64,000 nucleotides of DNA from Natronospira proteinivora (GTDB lineage Bacteria; Pseudomonadota; Gammaproteobacteria; Natronospirales; Natronospiraceae), in NCBI RefSeq assembly GCF_024170465.1, contig NZ_JALJYF010000002.1, positions 806,001-870,000 of the forward strand, read 5' to 3'. A program made the translations under genes and the position numbers. The notes beneath the pieces were generated by a model. It searched no databases. It was not told where the DNA came from and saw only the letters and a program-made list of their open reading frames with translations. This document shows positions 55,697 to 64,000 of this stretch, in pieces (positions within the stretch are counted from its first letter, which is position 1; each line of letters begins with the position of its first letter).

Positions 55697-57880
55697 ATGA
55701 AACAGCGTCATCTGATGATTCCCCTGGTCACCGCCGTGGCCGTGGCCCTGGCCCTGGTGGCTTGCGAGGCCCCGGAAGAACAGGACCGCCCCGAGGCTAG
55801 CCTGGGTTACGATTATCCCGACACCCGCCGCCAGGACCTGGTGGAAGAGATCCACGGGCATGAAATCGCCGATCCTTATCGCTGGCTGGAAGAGCTGGGC
55901 AGCGACGAGGTTCGGGACTGGATCAATGCCCAGAATGCCCTAACCTTCGAACACCTGGAAAGCCTGGATGGGCGTTCCCGCTTCAAGGAACGCATGACCG
56001 AGTTGTGGGACTACGAGCGCTACTCGGTGCCGGGCGAGGAATCCGGCCGCTATTTCTATCGTCACAATGACGGGCTGCAGGATCACGACGTGCTGTACTG
56101 GCTGGATGAGCTGGATGGTGAGCCGGTGGAGCTCATCGATCCCAATCAGTTCTCCGAGGACGGCACCGTCTCACTGACCATGACCTCGGTGCGTGAAGAC
56201 GGCGAATACATCGCTTACGGCAAGGCCGAGGGCGGCTCCGACTGGCAGACCTTCCATATCCGCAATATCGAGTCCGGCGAAGATACCGGCGATTTTCTGG
56301 AATGGATCAAGTATTCCCCGGCCGCCTGGACCCATGATCACGAGGGCTTTTTCTATGCCCGTTACCCTGAGCCCGAAGGGGATCCCCTCACCGCGCCCAA
56401 TGAGGACCACAAGGTCTATTACCATCGGATGGGCGAGGACCAGGCCGATAACGTTCTGGTCTACGAGCGACCGGATCGCCCGGACTGGCGGTTCAACCCC
56501 GAGGTCAGCGATGATGGCCGCTATCTGATCCTGACCGTTCGGGAAGGCACCGACCGTCGCAACCGGGTTTATTACATGGATCTGCAGGACGAGGAAAACC
56601 CCCGTCTGGATGGCGAGGTGGTGGAACTGCTGGATGATTTCGACGGCGGCTATCACTTCATCGACAATGATGACGCCGTGTTCTACTTCTACACCACCGC
56701 CGATGCCCCCCGGGGCCGGGTCATCGCCGTGGACACCGAGACGCCTGAACGGGATAACTGGGAAACCCTGGTGGAAGAAGGCGATCGGGTGATTCGCGGT
56801 GTTACCGCCGTGGACGATCGCTTCGTGGTCAACTATATGGAAGATGCCCGCAGCCGCCTGGCCCTGTTTGGTCGTGACGGTGAGCTGCGGGGTGATGTGG
56901 AGCTGCCGACCCTGGGCACGGTCTCCAGCGTCCGAAGCGGTCGTGACGGTGAGATGTTCTTTGGTTTCAGTTCCTTTCTCTATCCCACCACCATCTTTCG
57001 CTATGACACCGAAGCCGATGCTGAAGCGGAGATCTTCCGTCAGCCGGAGCTGAGCGGATTCGACCCCGAGGACTATGTCACCGAGCAGGTCTTCTACGAG
57101 TCCAAGGACGGCACCGAAATTCCCATGTTCATCACCCATCACCGGGATACCCAGGTGGATGGCCAGACCCCCACCCTGCTTTATGGCTATGGCGGCTTTA
57201 ATATCCCCATCCTGCCTTCCTTCTCGGTGGAGAACCTGGCCTGGATGGAACAGGGAGGTGTCTATGCCTCGGCCAATATCCGCGGTGGTGGCGAGTTTGG
57301 CCGGGAATGGCACCAAGCCGGTGTGCAGGAGAAAAAGCAGAATGTCTTTGATGACTTCATCGCCGCGGCCGAATACCTGGTGGACGAGGGCTATACTTCA
57401 TCCGATAACCTGGGTATTTACGGCCGTTCCAACGGCGGCTTGCTGGTCGGCGCGGTGATCAACCAACGCCCGGATCTCTTCGGCGCGGCCCTGCCGGCAG
57501 TGGGCGTGATGGATATGCTGCGTTTCCACAAGTTTACCGTGGGTGCCGGCTGGACACCGGACTATGGTAATCCGGAAGAGGCCGATGATTTTGAGGTTCT
57601 GCGCCAGTACTCGCCCTATCACAACATTCAGGTGGGCCATGACTATCCGCCGGTGCTGGTGACCACGGCCGATCATGACGACCGGGTGGTGCCGGGCCAT
57701 TCCTTCAAATATGCGGCCATGCTGCAGTACAAGCAGTCGGACGACAGCAGCAGCCCCATGCTGATTCGCATCGAGGACCGGGCCGGCCATGGTGCCGGCA
57801 TGTCCACCACCATGCGTATCGAGGAAGCCCGCGACCGCTGGGCCTTCCTCGCGGAGCATCTGGGCTTGGAATTAGACTGA
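55697..57880 (+). CDS. Prolyl oligopeptidase (S9A), lipoprotein
   Basis: 727 aa. Lipoprotein signal ending LALVAC. N-terminal IADPYRWLEELGSDEVRDWI, then a seven-blade propeller, then the catalytic domain: Ser578 in YGRSNGGLLVG, acid in TTADHDDRVVPGHSFKY and His in EDRAGHGAGMS. It cleaves short peptides after Pro. As a lipoprotein it probably works in the periplasm or on the outer membrane. Own terminator at 57901. Confidence 0.93.
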   Translation: MKQRHLMIPLVTAVAVALALVACEAPEEQDRPEASLGYDYPDTRRQDLVEEIHGHEIADPYRWLEELGSDEVRDWINAQNALTFEHLESLDGRSRFKERMTELWDYERYSVPGEESGRYFYRHNDGLQDHDVLYWLDELDGEPVELIDPNQFSEDGTVSLTMTSVREDGEYIAYGKAEGGSDWQTFHIRNIESGEDTGDFLEWIKYSPAAWTHDHEGFFYARYPEPEGDPLTAPNEDHKVYYHRMGEDQADNVLVYERPDRPDWRFNPEVSDDGRYLILTVREGTDRRNRVYYMDLQDEENPRLDGEVVELLDDFDGGYHFIDNDDAVFYFYTTADAPRGRVIAVDTETPERDNWETLVEEGDRVIRGVTAVDDRFVVNYMEDARSRLALFGRDGELRGDVELPTLGTVSSVRSGRDGEMFFGFSSFLYPTTIFRYDTEADAEAEIFRQPELSGFDPEDYVTEQVFYESKDGTEIPMFITHHRDTQVDGQTPTLLYGYGGFNIPILPSFSVENLAWMEQGGVYASANIRGGGEFGREWHQAGVQEKKQNVFDDFIAAAEYLVDEGYTSSDNLGIYGRSNGGLLVGAVINQRPDLFGAALPAVGVMDMLRFHKFTVGAGWTPDYGNPEEADDFEVLRQYSPYHNIQVGHDYPPVLVTTADHDDRVVPGHSFKYAAMLQYKQSDDSSSPMLIRIEDRAGHGAGMSTTMRIEEARDRWAFLAEHLGLELD

Positions 57881-59720: not shown

Positions 59721-59748
59721 TTGACAAGGAAGGATGCATTGCTATCTT
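59721..59748 (+). promoter_or_regulatory. Promoter of the decayed lanthipeptide precursor
   Basis: TTGACA, 16-bp spacer, TATCTT. The stretch from -35 to -10 resembles that of the intact copy (60304-60331), with the same spacing and the shared TTGCTA. Confidence 0.7.
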
Positions 59749-59813
59749 TAATTAGAGTTAGTCGTTGTGGCCAATCACAATAATATTAATCACTAAAAGG
59801 TGGGAGTAAGACG

Positions 59814-60002
59814 TTGAAACTGAAGTTGAACAAATAAGAATTCGTGATTCTGTCCGACGATGCCGAAGTGCTAGGCAAGGAAATGATCCCCCAGGTTGGT
59901 GGTGGTAACTTCACGGATCACTGTGGACACGGCGATGATTGCCGCCCAACACTGGTCGCCGCTGAAACGTGTGGCTATTGGATCTGCCCGCCTGTTTTCT
60001 AA
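59814..60002 (+). pseudogene. Decayed class I lanthipeptide precursor (paralogue of 60389)
   Basis: A 63-codon frame homologous to the intact precursor. The start is TTG where the intact copy has ATG. Codon 8 is TAA (59835-59837) where the intact copy has GAA, a one-base change. Beyond it the leader is nearly unchanged (LSDDAEVLGKEMIPQVGGG) and several differences are silent. The core starts NFTDHC and ends ETCGYWICPPVF, with four Cys like the intact copy. So it was once a working gene and decayed recently, unless the stop is bypassed. A late GTG (59844) could restart translation but would lose the leader's KLKLNK part. Confidence 0.8.
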
Positions 60003-60011
60003 ATGGGCCAC

Positions 60012-60050
60012 AAATGAAGGTGAAGGACGCCCTCGGGGCTGCCTTCATTT
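60012..60050 (+). terminator. Weak terminator-like hairpin after the decayed precursor
   Basis: Outer stem AAATGAAGG / CCTTCATTT (9 bp) with an inner GCCC/GGGC hairpin, no T-run. It stands where the intact copy has its terminator. From 60051 to 60303 nothing else is recognisable; the last 70 bp are AT-rich. Confidence 0.5.
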
Positions 60051-60303
60051 ATCCAGATTGATTTCCTCGCATTGCTTGCTTGTGACCATCCCCGCTTCGA
60101 CACGGCTCTCAGGGTGGATGGGCTGTTCATTGCGTTGTCAATCTTCAAGCGCGGATCGACAGCATATTGTCCCCTGGGTCCCTCGCAACCGGACGATCCA
60201 GCATCAGGGCATGCAAAAGAAATCATTATTCCAAACTCGTCCTACATTAGTCATATTAGCACTTACATTGTGATAATTTTTTACCTTTTTTTTAGGTTTT
60301 ATC

Positions 60304-60331
60304 TTGACACGGGAAGCTGCGTTGCTACGCT
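60304..60331 (+). promoter_or_regulatory. Promoter of the intact lanthipeptide precursor
   Basis: TTGACA, 16-bp spacer, TACGCT, about 58 bp before the start codon, preceded by an AT-rich tract ending in TTTTTTTTAGG, which could act as an UP element. Confidence 0.72.
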
Positions 60332-60388
60332 CAGGTTTGGTCATTGATTTGGCCAAGCACAACCAAATTTAAAATTGGGAGTAAGACA

Positions 60389-60583
60389 ATGAAACTGAAG
60401 CTGAACAAAGAAGAGCTGGTGACCCTGTCCGACGACGCCGAAGTGCTGGGCAAGGAAATGACCCCCCAAGTTGGTGGCGGTCAGGACACCCAGGTCTGTG
60501 TTGACTACAGCGAGCGCATTTGCCGCGTGACTTTGGCGCCCGGCGAGACCTGCGGCGTATGGACCTGCCCACCCGTACTATAA
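60389..60583 (+). CDS. Class I lanthipeptide precursor peptide
   Basis: 64 aa. Leader residues 1-31 (KLKLNKEELVTLSDDAEVLG, then KEMTPQVGGG) have the LNKxxL-like motif of class I leaders and end in a GG-type cleavage site. Core residues 32-64 hold Cys37, 45, 55, 60 and Thr34, Ser41, Thr48, Thr54, Thr59. Thr34-x-x-Cys37 is a canonical ring spacing, Ser41 to Cys45 is also plausible, and the end is ETCGVWTCPPVL. ATG 60389 has GGGAG 6 nt upstream; a longer frame from 60344 runs through this site and is rejected. LanC and LanB genes follow. Ring pattern, activity and final cut are not known. Confidence 0.85.
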   Translation: MKLKLNKEELVTLSDDAEVLGKEMTPQVGGGQDTQVCVDYSERICRVTLAPGETCGVWTCPPVL

Positions 60584-60595
60584 AAATGGGGTGAG

Positions 60596-60628
60596 AATGA
60601 GGGCAGCCCACCATGGGCTGCCCTCATT
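60596..60628 (+). terminator. Strong terminator/attenuator between precursor and lanC
   Basis: A perfect 15-bp stem AATGAGGGCAGCCCA / TGGGCTGCCCTCATT with a 3-nt loop, then TTCT. Partial read-through would give much precursor and less enzyme mRNA, as in other RiPP clusters. Confidence 0.9.
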
Positions 60629-60704
60629 TTCTAATTCGATATCGTACGTATTTCATTTGCTCTAATTTCTCAACTGTGCCTTTAAGCGCCCGAGGGCCAA
60701 AGCC

Positions 60705-61919
60705 TTGCACATCATGACCCAGTGCCAATTCAATCGCCTTGAGGCGATTGTTGCCGAGATTGTCCCGAACCTCCTGGAAGCACCCACTGACGAACCGATT
60801 GGCCTGATGAGCGGTCGGGCTGGCCATGCCCTTGCCGTTTGGTATGCCCGGCATTTCAATTCGGACTTGGTCGATGAAAATCAGTTTTCAGAAATGCTTT
60901 CCGAACTTCAGGGTGCTGTGCCTTACGTAAGCAAAGACCACCGATTTAGTAGGGGGTTACCCGGTGTCGCCTGGTTATTTGAATTGCTTCTCTGGGAGCA
61001 GGACGACCCCTATCTTGCAGAGTTCAACCAGAATGTTGACCGTATCCTGCTGAACTTACTCCAAGTCGAGTCGTGGCAAGGGGAAATTGAGCTGATGGAA
61101 GGCTTGAGTGGACTCGCACCTTATGCAGCCCGTCGCCTTAAGCAGGCGAATCAAACAGCCGTTTACAAGGAAATTATTCGTCATTTTTCCGATCTCGCGG
61201 TCTGGATTTTCCCCGATCAATGCACTTGGCCGAATCCGCCCAATTCGCCGTATAACATGAAATCCCAACCTGAGGAGCCGGAGCATAACCTGGGGCTCGC
61301 TCACGGTGTACCCGCTGTGCTTGCTGCATTGATCGCGCCTACCCAGCATAAAGATTTGAGCTCGGTGGCCAAACCGCTCCTGCAGGGAGGCGCCAACTGG
61401 CTAGCGGCTCAACGCCAGGACAGTGATGAACTTGAGTGCCACTATGGTTACCTGGCTGGAGAGCCCAGCCACTCGAGGCTTGGTTGGTGTTATGGCGATG
61501 CCAGTAACGCACTAATCTTGGCTCGCGCCGGGGCAGTTTTGAATGATAAAGCCTTGATCCAGGCAGCAAGAACCGTTGCCCTTCATGCCGCCAGCCGATC
61601 GCCCGAAGCCGGACTGGTAAGGGATGGTGGACTTTGCCATGGCAGCGCAGGCCTATCCCTTATCTTTTCCTTGCTGCACACTCTACTCGGTGACCCCGAG
61701 CTCCAGAACGCCGCCGAATTTTGGTTGGAAGATACCATTAAGCGCTATGAAAACCACGGCCTTAACGGCTTCGACGCCTATCGTTACGAACCGGAAAATG
61801 GCAAGCCTTATTTTGTCGCGGACACTGGGTTCCTGGCGGGCTATGCCGGAGTTGCCTTGGCATTGATGGCTGCAACCGAACAATCGCCGGATTGGGGCGA
61901 TTGTCTCCTGCTCCTCTAG
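60705..61919 (+). CDS. lanC: LanC-like lanthipeptide cyclase
   Basis: 404 aa, typical for LanC. Double-barrel motifs: an early GLPGVAW, the catalytic His in NLGLAHGVPAVLAAL (His200), zinc ligands Cys262 (GWCYGDAS) and Cys311-His312 (LCHGSAGLSLIF), and the C-terminal FLAGYAGVALAL. All residues known from the nisin cyclase (its His212, Cys284, Cys330, His331) are in place. It adds Cys thiols onto dehydrated Ser/Thr to form lanthionine rings. Start: TTG 60705 has GAGGG 8 nt upstream; ATG 60714 is possible but lacks a site. In this cluster lanC lies before lanB. Confidence 0.92.
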   Translation: MHIMTQCQFNRLEAIVAEIVPNLLEAPTDEPIGLMSGRAGHALAVWYARHFNSDLVDENQFSEMLSELQGAVPYVSKDHRFSRGLPGVAWLFELLLWEQDDPYLAEFNQNVDRILLNLLQVESWQGEIELMEGLSGLAPYAARRLKQANQTAVYKEIIRHFSDLAVWIFPDQCTWPNPPNSPYNMKSQPEEPEHNLGLAHGVPAVLAALIAPTQHKDLSSVAKPLLQGGANWLAAQRQDSDELECHYGYLAGEPSHSRLGWCYGDASNALILARAGAVLNDKALIQAARTVALHAASRSPEAGLVRDGGLCHGSAGLSLIFSLLHTLLGDPELQNAAEFWLEDTIKRYENHGLNGFDAYRYEPENGKPYFVADTGFLAGYAGVALALMAATEQSPDWGDCLLLL

Positions 61920-61985
61920 AAAAAGCTTCATGAATCGCGCATTATCTGGCATTTCGCTCGCCGAATTCCCAGTTGCTGTGTAGAA

Positions 61986-62020
61986 ACAAGCGAATTTTCC
62001 TGTGGAAAACCCTCGCTTGT
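61986..62020 (+). other. Hairpin between lanC and lanB
   Basis: Outer ACAAGCGA / TCGCTTGT (8 bp) and inner TTTTCC / GGAAAA pairs around TGT. No T-run. It may tune processing or read-through into lanB. The 188-bp gap has no gene. Confidence 0.5.
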
Positions 62021-62107
62021 AATGCCATCCCAGAAATCAAACTTAAGCGACGCAGCGGGAGCGAGAGGCACGTTGAAGGATGACTAGAAGAAGGCATAGG
62101 AAATTCA

Positions 62108-64000
62108 ATGGCACACCATCAGAACCTGCAGCCGGAAGAGTTTTTTGTTATTCGTACCCCCCGGTTACCTGTATCCGAACTGTCGCGCCTCCCAAAGGAT
62201 CCTCGCGAGCAACAAATATTCATCGAAGAGTGGCTGAAGGAGCCAGGGGTGGCTGAAGCGATCTACATTGCCAGTCCTTCATTGATGGCTAGGTTAGATC
62301 AGTGGCGGGCCAAGCCGACCGGGAAACAAGGCCGAAAGATTACGGAAAGCCTTGTCAAGTATTTCATTCGCATGACAACCAGGTCTACACCTTTTGGATT
62401 GTTTGCTGGAATTCAATTGGGGAATGTCAGTGACCAGACTCGCCTAACCATAGACCCTGGTCGTGTCGGTCGTCGTCATACACGCTTGGACATGTACTAC
62501 CTCGCAGGTGTACGGGATGGATTGAGCAAGGATGAGGAAAGCAAGTACAGCGTCCCATACAGGCCCAACCCAACATTGCATCAGGTTCACGACGCATTAC
62601 ACTATATCGAACCCTACCGGGGAAATGGAGGACGACAGTACCGCCTGAGTTCCGCTGCGGCCGAACCCCATTTGCTTGCCCTGCTGGGCAAGGCCCGGGC
62701 CGGCCTTAGCCAATCAGACTTGATTGATGCATTCCGTGCTGAATACCCGGAAGCCGAGCGGCATGAAGTGGACGAGTTCATCAATGAATTGATCAACGAA
62801 TCTCTGCTTCTACCCCATATTCCCTTGCCCTTGACCGGTAATTCTCCAGACCAGGCTTTCCTCCAGTCGCTGGATCGGCTCTCTGAGCAGGCCACGGCTG
62901 GTCCCATCCGAAAGGCGATTAAGCAGTTAAATAAGATTGATCAGGAGTTTGGTGTCGAACCACTTCGTTATCAAGCCGTCAAGGAGACCCTCGAGGCACT
63001 ACCCCACGAGGTTTCTGAAAATAAACTCTTCCAGGTCGATCTCTATCGCGAGCTTAAAGATTGCCAGCTGGATCGAGACCTGGCATCGAAAGTAGCAACT
63101 GTGATGACTCTGCTTGCTCAGCTTGGCCAAGAGCCGACAAACGAACTGGAGGAGTTTGTAAATCGTTTCAAGGCCCGATTTGAAGGGCAGATGATTCCAT
63201 TATCCCAGGTACTGAATGAGGAAGTTGGGATACCCGTGAGTACCGAAGGTGGCTATCAAAGCCAATTGTTGGCGGGCGTCCAATTGCCGAAGAAAGGACG
63301 GAATACCGTTTCATCTGCCACCACCTCCCCTTTGCAGGCCGAAATCATGCGGCGCCTCAGCTTGCCGGAAAATCATGGTATGGATGCAATCCATATTCCC
63401 CTTAAAGCACTGAAAAAAATGGCCGAAAAGCGAAAAGGGAATGAACCAGCTAGACTACCCGTGTCGTTTGCTGCATCCCTCAGCTTGTACAGGAAACGCC
63501 AAAGCGGACAGGCCATTGCCCATCTTAAAGGTGGCTATGGGCCGTCGGCCGCGAATCTGTTAGGGCGGTTCTGCCATTTAGATGAGCGATTGACACAGCG
63601 CGTCCGCGAACACCTGGAAAAGGAAGAAGCCCATTCGCCGGATGCAATATTTGCCGAGGTCGTCCATATGCCCGATGGGCGTCCCGGCAACGTCATTGCC
63701 CGCCCCATATTAAGGCCATATGAAATCGCCTTTCTAGGGGATTCCGGTGTGCCCGAGGAGAAACAGATCGGAATCGATGACCTTTATGTCTTCGTGGAAG
63801 ATGGAATCGTCAAGCTCTGGTCCAAGCGACATCACCGCCAGGTCGTGCCACGGCTCTCATCGGCACATAATTACAGCAGTAGAAGCCTGGGCATTTATAA
63901 GTTTCTTTGTATGTTACAAAATCAATCAGGGAAGGTCCCGGGATTTACACTTCCCGAGTCTCTGCGACAGAGCAGTTTCGTGCCGCGGATACTGCTCGGG
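62108..64000 (+). CDS. lanB: LanB-type lantibiotic dehydratase, N-terminal part (runs off the window)
   Basis: 631 codons open to the right edge without a stop. The N-terminal glutamylation domain has EFFVIRTPRLPVSEL at the start, the hallmark FIRMTTRSTPFGLFAG at residues 87-101, then RVGRRHTRLDMYYLAGV and KLFQVDLYRELKD. Class I LanB enzymes (about 1,000 aa) load glutamate from Glu-tRNA onto Ser/Thr and then eliminate it. The C-terminal elimination domain lies outside the window, so a split LanB cannot be excluded. AGGA lies 6 nt before ATG 62108. Confidence 0.92.
   Translation, partial: MAHHQNLQPEEFFVIRTPRLPVSELSRLPKDPREQQIFIEEWLKEPGVAEAIYIASPSLMARLDQWRAKPTGKQGRKITESLVKYFIRMTTRSTPFGLFAGIQLGNVSDQTRLTIDPGRVGRRHTRLDMYYLAGVRDGLSKDEESKYSVPYRPNPTLHQVHDALHYIEPYRGNGGRQYRLSSAAAEPHLLALLGKARAGLSQSDLIDAFRAEYPEAERHEVDEFINELINESLLLPHIPLPLTGNSPDQAFLQSLDRLSEQATAGPIRKAIKQLNKIDQEFGVEPLRYQAVKETLEALPHEVSENKLFQVDLYRELKDCQLDRDLASKVATVMTLLAQLGQEPTNELEEFVNRFKARFEGQMIPLSQVLNEEVGIPVSTEGGYQSQLLAGVQLPKKGRNTVSSATTSPLQAEIMRRLSLPENHGMDAIHIPLKALKKMAEKRKGNEPARLPVSFAASLSLYRKRQSGQAIAHLKGGYGPSAANLLGRFCHLDERLTQRVREHLEKEEAHSPDAIFAEVVHMPDGRPGNVIARPILRPYEIAFLGDSGVPEEKQIGIDDLYVFVEDGIVKLWSKRHHRQVVPRLSSAHNYSSRSLGIYKFLCMLQNQSGKVPGFTLPESLRQSSFVPRILLG

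Follow-up and report, generated by a model that had tools for sequence, protein, structure and literature searches.

Does the end of the analysed stretch of the Natronospira proteinivora genome encode a complete class I lanthipeptide system, and how much of that system is new? The stretch, referred to below as the window, comprises 64,000 nucleotides and corresponds to bases 806001-870000 of contig 2, the genome being 2.93 Mb in size and assembled in four contigs; coordinates beyond position 64000 of the window were extrapolated. The locus contains, all on the + strand, two copies of a precursor gene (lanA1 and lanA2), a cyclase gene (lanC), a dehydratase gene (lanB), and genes for a HlyD-family adaptor and for an exporter in which a C39 peptidase is fused to an ABC transporter. 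The presence of the three-gene lan set is far beyond chance. The results described below indicate that this locus very probably constitutes a complete class I lanthipeptide operon of the gammaproteobacterial type with an LxLxKx5L/GG leader. That the cluster is functional and producing is, in our judgement, likely.

Gene lanB (62108..65293, + strand) continues beyond the end of the window in the same frame and forms a single open reading frame (ORF) of 1061 amino acids. Its product starts with RMTTRSTPFGLFAG and combines, as in class I systems, the glutamylation and elimination domains in one protein (PF04738, 425 bits; PF14028, 212 bits; TIGR03891, 219 bits); a split LanB as in the pinensin-like subgroup, or a truncated one, is thereby ruled out. 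The nearest solved structures are 9g04 and NisB (4wd9). Residues of NisB were mapped onto LanB via HMMER alignments. Residues R83, R87, T89 and D121 of NisB correspond to R88, R92, T94 and D128 of LanB, and R784, R786, E823, R826 and H961 correspond to R821, R823, E863, R866 and H1017, so that all nine mapped positions are identical. In NisB these residues serve glutamylation and glutamate elimination. Gene lanC (60714..61919, + strand) encodes a stand-alone protein of 401 amino acids (PF05147, 120 bits, E 1.5e-34). Alignment with LANCL1 and LanC structures, of which 3t33, 8byk and NisC (2g02) are the nearest, revealed the full Cys/Cys-His set of zinc ligands, C259 in a WCYG motif and C308 and H309 in a CHG motif, together with a catalytic-type His, H197, in an AHG motif.

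The genes following lanB are those expected for export. The HlyD-family adaptor gene (65379-66623, + strand, 414 amino acids) matches PF13437, and also TIGR01843 with 163 bits, which is under the cut-off of that model. The exporter gene (66620-68731, + strand, 703 amino acids) combines PF03412, PF00664 and PF00005 and matches PCAT1 (4ry2) with 373 bits, the Cys, His and Asp of the C39 triad being aligned. This fusion, its triad and the GG leader of its substrate point to a C39-type (PCAT) processing exporter. Four outer-membrane channel genes are present elsewhere in the genome. The preliminary description of this DNA, made from the window alone, had named an intact precursor with a GG leader end and a four-Cys core (lanA2, see below), a LanC with all zinc ligands and a LanB with its hallmark sequence, and these are indeed present. 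It had also proposed to read beyond position 64000 for the LanB elimination domain, a transporter and a C39 or other protease; the domain is there, and transporter and C39 protease turned out to be one gene, accompanied by the HlyD adaptor.

The intact precursor gene, lanA2 (60389..60583, + strand), encodes 64 amino acids, composed of a leader, MKLKLNKEELVTLSDDAEVLGKEMTPQVGGG, and a core, QDTQVCVDYSERICRVTLAPGETCGVWTCPPVL. The leader matches the LxLxKx5L motif, has the GG end and aligns with precursors adjoining homologous LanB and LanC genes. Such leaders in conjunction with C39 proteases have been described by Walker et al. for Bacteroidetes class I LanA peptides (PMC7268733). Judged by its own letters, the LanA2 leader is of the class I type. 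Model NF038158 (lant_leader_L1b) gave weak matches in 5/11 members of the precursor alignment, with a best E value of 0.0013. The core of 33 residues contains four Cys, four Thr and one Ser, and every Cys has a Ser or Thr upstream. Its computed [M+H]+ is 3638.711 when unmodified, 3566.669 after loss of four and 3548.658 after loss of five water molecules. A search of the whole genome revealed no precursors beyond lanA1 and lanA2, and the lanA1 match carries one TAA.

Knowledge of the protein families suggests how these components would act together. LanB would bind the LanA2 leader motif, glutamylate Ser and Thr of the core via glutamyl-tRNA(Glu) and eliminate the glutamate to give dehydroalanine (Dha) and dehydrobutyrine (Dhb), to which LanC would add the Cys thiols, so that as many as four (methyl)lanthionine rings are formed. 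Cleavage by the C39-ABC exporter would take place after ...PQVGGG, and the 33-residue product would be exported with the HlyD adaptor and a TolC-type channel of the host, encoded by one of the four outer-membrane channel genes. Any ring pattern is speculative; the spacing of Ser/Thr and Cys makes an overlapping ring pair at the C-terminal end of the core probable. The biological role is likewise a matter of speculation, that of an antibacterial bacteriocin or interference peptide being the most likely by analogy; the cluster contains no immunity gene that would point to a target. The LanB/LanC pair might instead make something other than a plain lanthipeptide, such as a peptide combining dehydrated residues with disulfides, or one that is tailored further. 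A sequence cannot give the ring pattern, and the title of the pseudorosin paper, as cited in PMC12819058, ascribes a dethiolation activity to the dehydratase PsfB. However, the operon is devoid of a tailoring gene, a LanC with its full zinc ligand set adjoins LanB, and Ser/Thr residues precede each Cys, which makes this alternative unlikely.

A plain lanthipeptide derived from lanA2 being the preferred product, the role of the second precursor copy has to be considered. Gene lanA1 (59814..60002, + strand, TTG start) is located 575 bp upstream of lanA2, with which it shares 81% identity along a stretch of 130 bp. Codon 8 of lanA1 is a TAA, located within the LxLxKx5L motif; downstream of it follow a GG-leader-like stretch and a four-Cys core, NFTDHCGHGDDCRPTLVAAETCGYWICPPVF. 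Comparison of the leader codons of both copies showed that 20/31 are identical, 6 are synonymous and 5 differ otherwise, including start and stop. Both cores end in TL...ETCGxWxCPPV and their front halves are unlike. Since this ending was kept in both copies while the front halves diverged, the C-terminal part of the core was probably under constraint before lanA1 decayed.

The regions preceding the two copies, promoter and ribosome site included, are alike. A sigma-70-like promoter (TTGACA-16-TATCTT; 59721..59748, + strand) is located ahead of lanA1, and a TTGACA at 60304-60309 that precedes lanA2 aligns with it; the promoter-pattern search found 5 sites where 2.4 were expected by chance. Between lanA2 and lanC an inverted repeat (60593..60631, + strand) with an 18-bp stem and a 3-nt loop is predicted to fold into an RNA hairpin (-36.4 kcal/mol, z -7.4). 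It is a probable attenuator or 3' stabiliser, which probably tunes the levels of precursor versus enzymes in favour of LanA.

If both precursor copies were made, lanA1 being expressed by read-through of its stop codon or by initiation at an internal GTG (59844), the system would produce a two-component lanthipeptide. Such a pair has precedent, as two precursors are present in the thalassomonasin cluster (PMC11433236) and in Rheinheimera clusters, and lanA1 retains promoter-like and ribosome-site sequences, the GG leader end and the four-Cys core. However, the stop codon leaves one intact precursor instead of two, and a product initiated at GTG 59844 would have lost the LxLxK portion of the leader motif; this start codon is also without the conserved GGGAG ribosome site. 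Furthermore, the hairpin after lanA1 is not significant (z -0.8), unlike that after lanA2, and relatives too hold decayed precursors with one stop. We consider a two-component system very unlikely. Because the TAA lies inside the motif and a product from the internal start would be without its N-terminal half, lanA1 is taken as a dead, decayed paralogue of lanA2.

The lanA2-based cluster appears to be an addition to the chromosome. Its guanine plus cytosine (GC) content is 48-54%, compared to about 60% in both flanks. In a congener (G005), genes for a prolyl oligopeptidase (POP), an aldo-keto reductase, a cold-shock protein (csp), an S9 peptidase and a dehydrogenase are present in the same order with 77-94% identity. 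The distance from csp to the S9 peptidase gene is ∼360 bp in the congener, where the site is without a lan gene, and ∼9.4 kb here, corresponding to an insertion of ∼9 kb. LanB is absent from the 18 other genomes of the order (1/19 has it). Of 369 genomes sampled from the class, three exceeded the Pfam cut-off for LanB, that of the window being the only one at full strength, and a LanB protein search of 398 genomes of the phylum gave no other match. Inspection of the insertion edges revealed neither a tRNA nor an Rfam element, and neither flanking direct repeats marking a transposon nor another mobile-element signature was seen there. The GC contrast, the empty site of the congener and the absence of LanB from the rest of the order together indicate that the cluster was most likely acquired horizontally since the genus arose. 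Since the 16S rRNA gene is missing from the four-contig assembly, atpD, located on the same contig, was used to place the host; among the plasmid-collection records its nearest matches are Gammaproteobacteria (Aeromonas 76.1%, E. coli about 75.7%; Neisseria 71.2%).

Genes for S9-family peptidases flank the insertion at 55697-57880 and, beyond the window, at 68945-71041, the latter on the - strand 3' of the exporter gene. It is scarcely credible that these enzymes are cluster members that remove the leader in the manner of POP enzymes in class III systems: they bracket the cluster and a gene of the prolyl oligopeptidase family is present in a Spirosoma cluster, but both occupy the corresponding positions in the congener without lan genes (77% and 85% identity), which refutes their membership, and their GC content is host-like. 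The S9 query had 13 matches in the genome, suggestive of a protein-feeding lifestyle.

Some observations weigh against a complete and working operon acquired by this lineage. The LanA2 leader scores 12.6 bits with NF038153, the NCBI class I leader model, for which the curated cut-off is 22. One of the two precursors has decayed, so that the system could be on its way out. A regulator gene is absent from the cluster, as are genes for immunity (LanFEG/LanI) and for LanP, the last of which would be needless because a C39 peptidase is present. Finally, it is strictly speaking conceivable that the congener lost the cluster and that no gain took place here; gain is favoured because of the GC contrast.

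Relatives of LanB were identified in a scan of the genomes of 84,980 species with a LanB alignment that included plasmid-borne LanBs; an earlier scan of genome contigs with the single LanB protein as query had given no match. The nearest LanBs, mostly 43-45% identical over about 1050 amino acids, are those of Pseudoalteromonas, Alkalimonas, Rheinheimera, Arsukibacterium and Shewanella, followed by those of Colwellia, Photobacterium and Algicola (34-39% identity). In a maximum-likelihood tree the window LanB is placed inside a gammaproteobacterial clade with Pseudoalteromonas, Rheinheimera, Alkalimonas and Colwellia (98-100 in the Shimodaira-Hasegawa-like approximate likelihood ratio test, SH-aLRT), with a Bacteroidota clade as its sister. 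The order lanA-lanC-lanB-hlyD-ABC is common to the window, Rheinheimera and Arsukibacterium. Alkalimonas and Colwellia have lanC-lanB-hlyD-ABC, the Colwellia precursor being located in front on the opposite strand, and in most Pseudoalteromonas loci hlyD-ABC is placed ahead of lanC-lanB. The precursors of related loci have the same leader. This leader is also found on unusually long Cys-rich precursors of Colwellia (L028, 6249-6509) and P. rubra (L112), with cores of about 50 residues and 5-7 Cys. The plasmid LanBs of Cupriavidus and Rhizobium fall outside the gammaproteobacterial clade and were left out of the functional comparison. On the Cupriavidus oxalaticus plasmid (L011, 6042-10123) and on pRlX3 of Rhizobium johnstonii (L014, 5442-10003), LanB adjoins a cupin-like gene, kinase-like LanC genes are located farther off, and no LxLxK/GG precursor was seen at these loci; this arrangement of alpha- and betaproteobacterial plasmids is a different one and may be undescribed.

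The precursor profile gave a strikingly different result in Pseudoalteromonas than in other genera. Ten genomes of this genus had 69, 76, 31, 17, 45, 14, 28, 32, 12 and 11 matches (E <= 0.1), and just 1-3 were found in Rheinheimera, Alkalimonas, Arsukibacterium, Shewanella, Colwellia, Photobacterium and Algicola. Forty precursor places were retrieved, nearly all from two Pseudoalteromonas genomes. The leaders of these peptides, 31 amino acids long, have a mean pairwise identity of 52%, compared to 23-26% for the cores, which contain 12% Cys and 11-13% Thr; all 41 of the scored peptides have two or more Cys together with a Ser/Thr. A nearly closed genome (G835) contains 52 precursors across two large contigs and one LanB. 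Dozens of scattered LanA-leader genes were likewise noted in other genomes, among them G762 (L016), G763 (L017) and G766 (L020), at loci L107-L174.

Among 108 Pseudoalteromonas genomes, precursors (E <= 1e-4) were found in 51/51 LanB-positive and 0/57 LanB-negative ones; positive genomes mostly have one LanB match, and a few have two or three that are mainly partial. The corresponding Fisher value, 5e-32, overstates the case because the 108 genomes share ancestry and are not independent. This pattern of co-occurrence ties the scattered peptides to LanB, and on the strength of these sequence comparisons we consider it probable that they are dispersed substrates of the enzyme. A single in-frame stop, as in lanA1, was observed in several dispersed copies (G762, G766, G825, G876, G792 and others), and birth and decay of precursors look common in the family. 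With moderate confidence, the window cluster can be regarded as an outlying single-product member, its Pseudoalteromonas kin running a combinatorial class I system with from about 10 to more than 50 precursors. The expansion itself is not present in the genome of the window, which has two copies. So interpreted, the Pseudoalteromonas system, usually with one LanB and with precursors across both large replicons, appears to be a class I equivalent of the prochlorosins of picocyanobacteria. In both, one modifying system would serve dozens of scattered precursors with a conserved leader and a hypervariable core; prochlorosins differ in that a single class II LanM, ProcM, acts on Nif11 leaders, whereas Pseudoalteromonas has class I LanB and LanC, dependence on glutamyl-tRNA and the 31-residue leader. 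A text search retrieved no published description of a dispersed class I system, most subscription papers being outside that search.

How new, then, is the cluster of the window? Its assignment as a class I cluster in a gammaproteobacterium, made in the preliminary description, is upheld by domains, catalytic residues, leader type, operon structure, the LanB tree and atpD. The novelty of the host group implied there is not: LanBs of the same family are present in 51/108 Pseudoalteromonas genomes, and gammaproteobacterial class I lanthipeptides have already been characterised (PMC11433236, PMC11015633, PMC12819058 and PMC9993889). These are thalassomonasins A/B of Thalassomonas actiniarum and viridisins of T. 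viridans (PMC11433236; PMC11015633), pseudorosins A-C of Pseudoalteromonas flavipulchra S16 (cited in PMC12819058), and PciA of P. citrea, which was produced in E. coli with no additional tRNA(Glu) (PMC9993889). Because such products were made before, the cluster belongs to an already known type. The proposal of a new lanthipeptide holds in a weak sense: no identical core was met. Even so, the precursor beside LanB in Pseudoalteromonas sp. HM-SA03 has a similar end (NTCGRHTCPDIY, compared to ETCGVWTCPPVL in the window).

The marine clusters for pseudorosin, PciA, thalassomonasin and viridisin share with the window the LanB/LanC system and small Cys/Thr-rich cores; the window represents another lineage of the class with another core, a comparison in which the published cores were not compared letter by letter. 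Class I systems of Bacteroidota with LxLxKx5L/GG leaders, the pinensin group (PMC7268733), are alike in leader motif, GG end and C39 protease. They differ in that the pinensin LanB is split and that of the window is in one piece; the window LanB, within its gammaproteobacterial clade, is 28-33% identical to Bacteroidota LanBs. The nisin type (NisB/NisC/NisP/NisT) shares LanB and LanC chemistry and catalytic residues. The cluster does not belong to that subgroup: its leader is without an FxLD box, no LanP or LanFEG gene is present between csp and the S9 peptidase gene, and a C39 exporter with HlyD adaptor is in place.

The locus thus provides a further class I operon from Gram-negative bacteria that is complete and self-contained. 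It should lend itself to expression in E. coli provided that its tRNA(Glu) resembles that of E. coli, as reported for PciA (PMC9993889). If the combinatorial interpretation is true, half of the sampled Pseudoalteromonas would hold a natural class I library, with a single LanB serving dozens of dispersed precursors. The genus would then offer a test bed for how a glutamyl-tRNA-dependent LanB tolerates many cores, and heterotrophic marine bacteria would have their class I counterpart of the prochlorosins.

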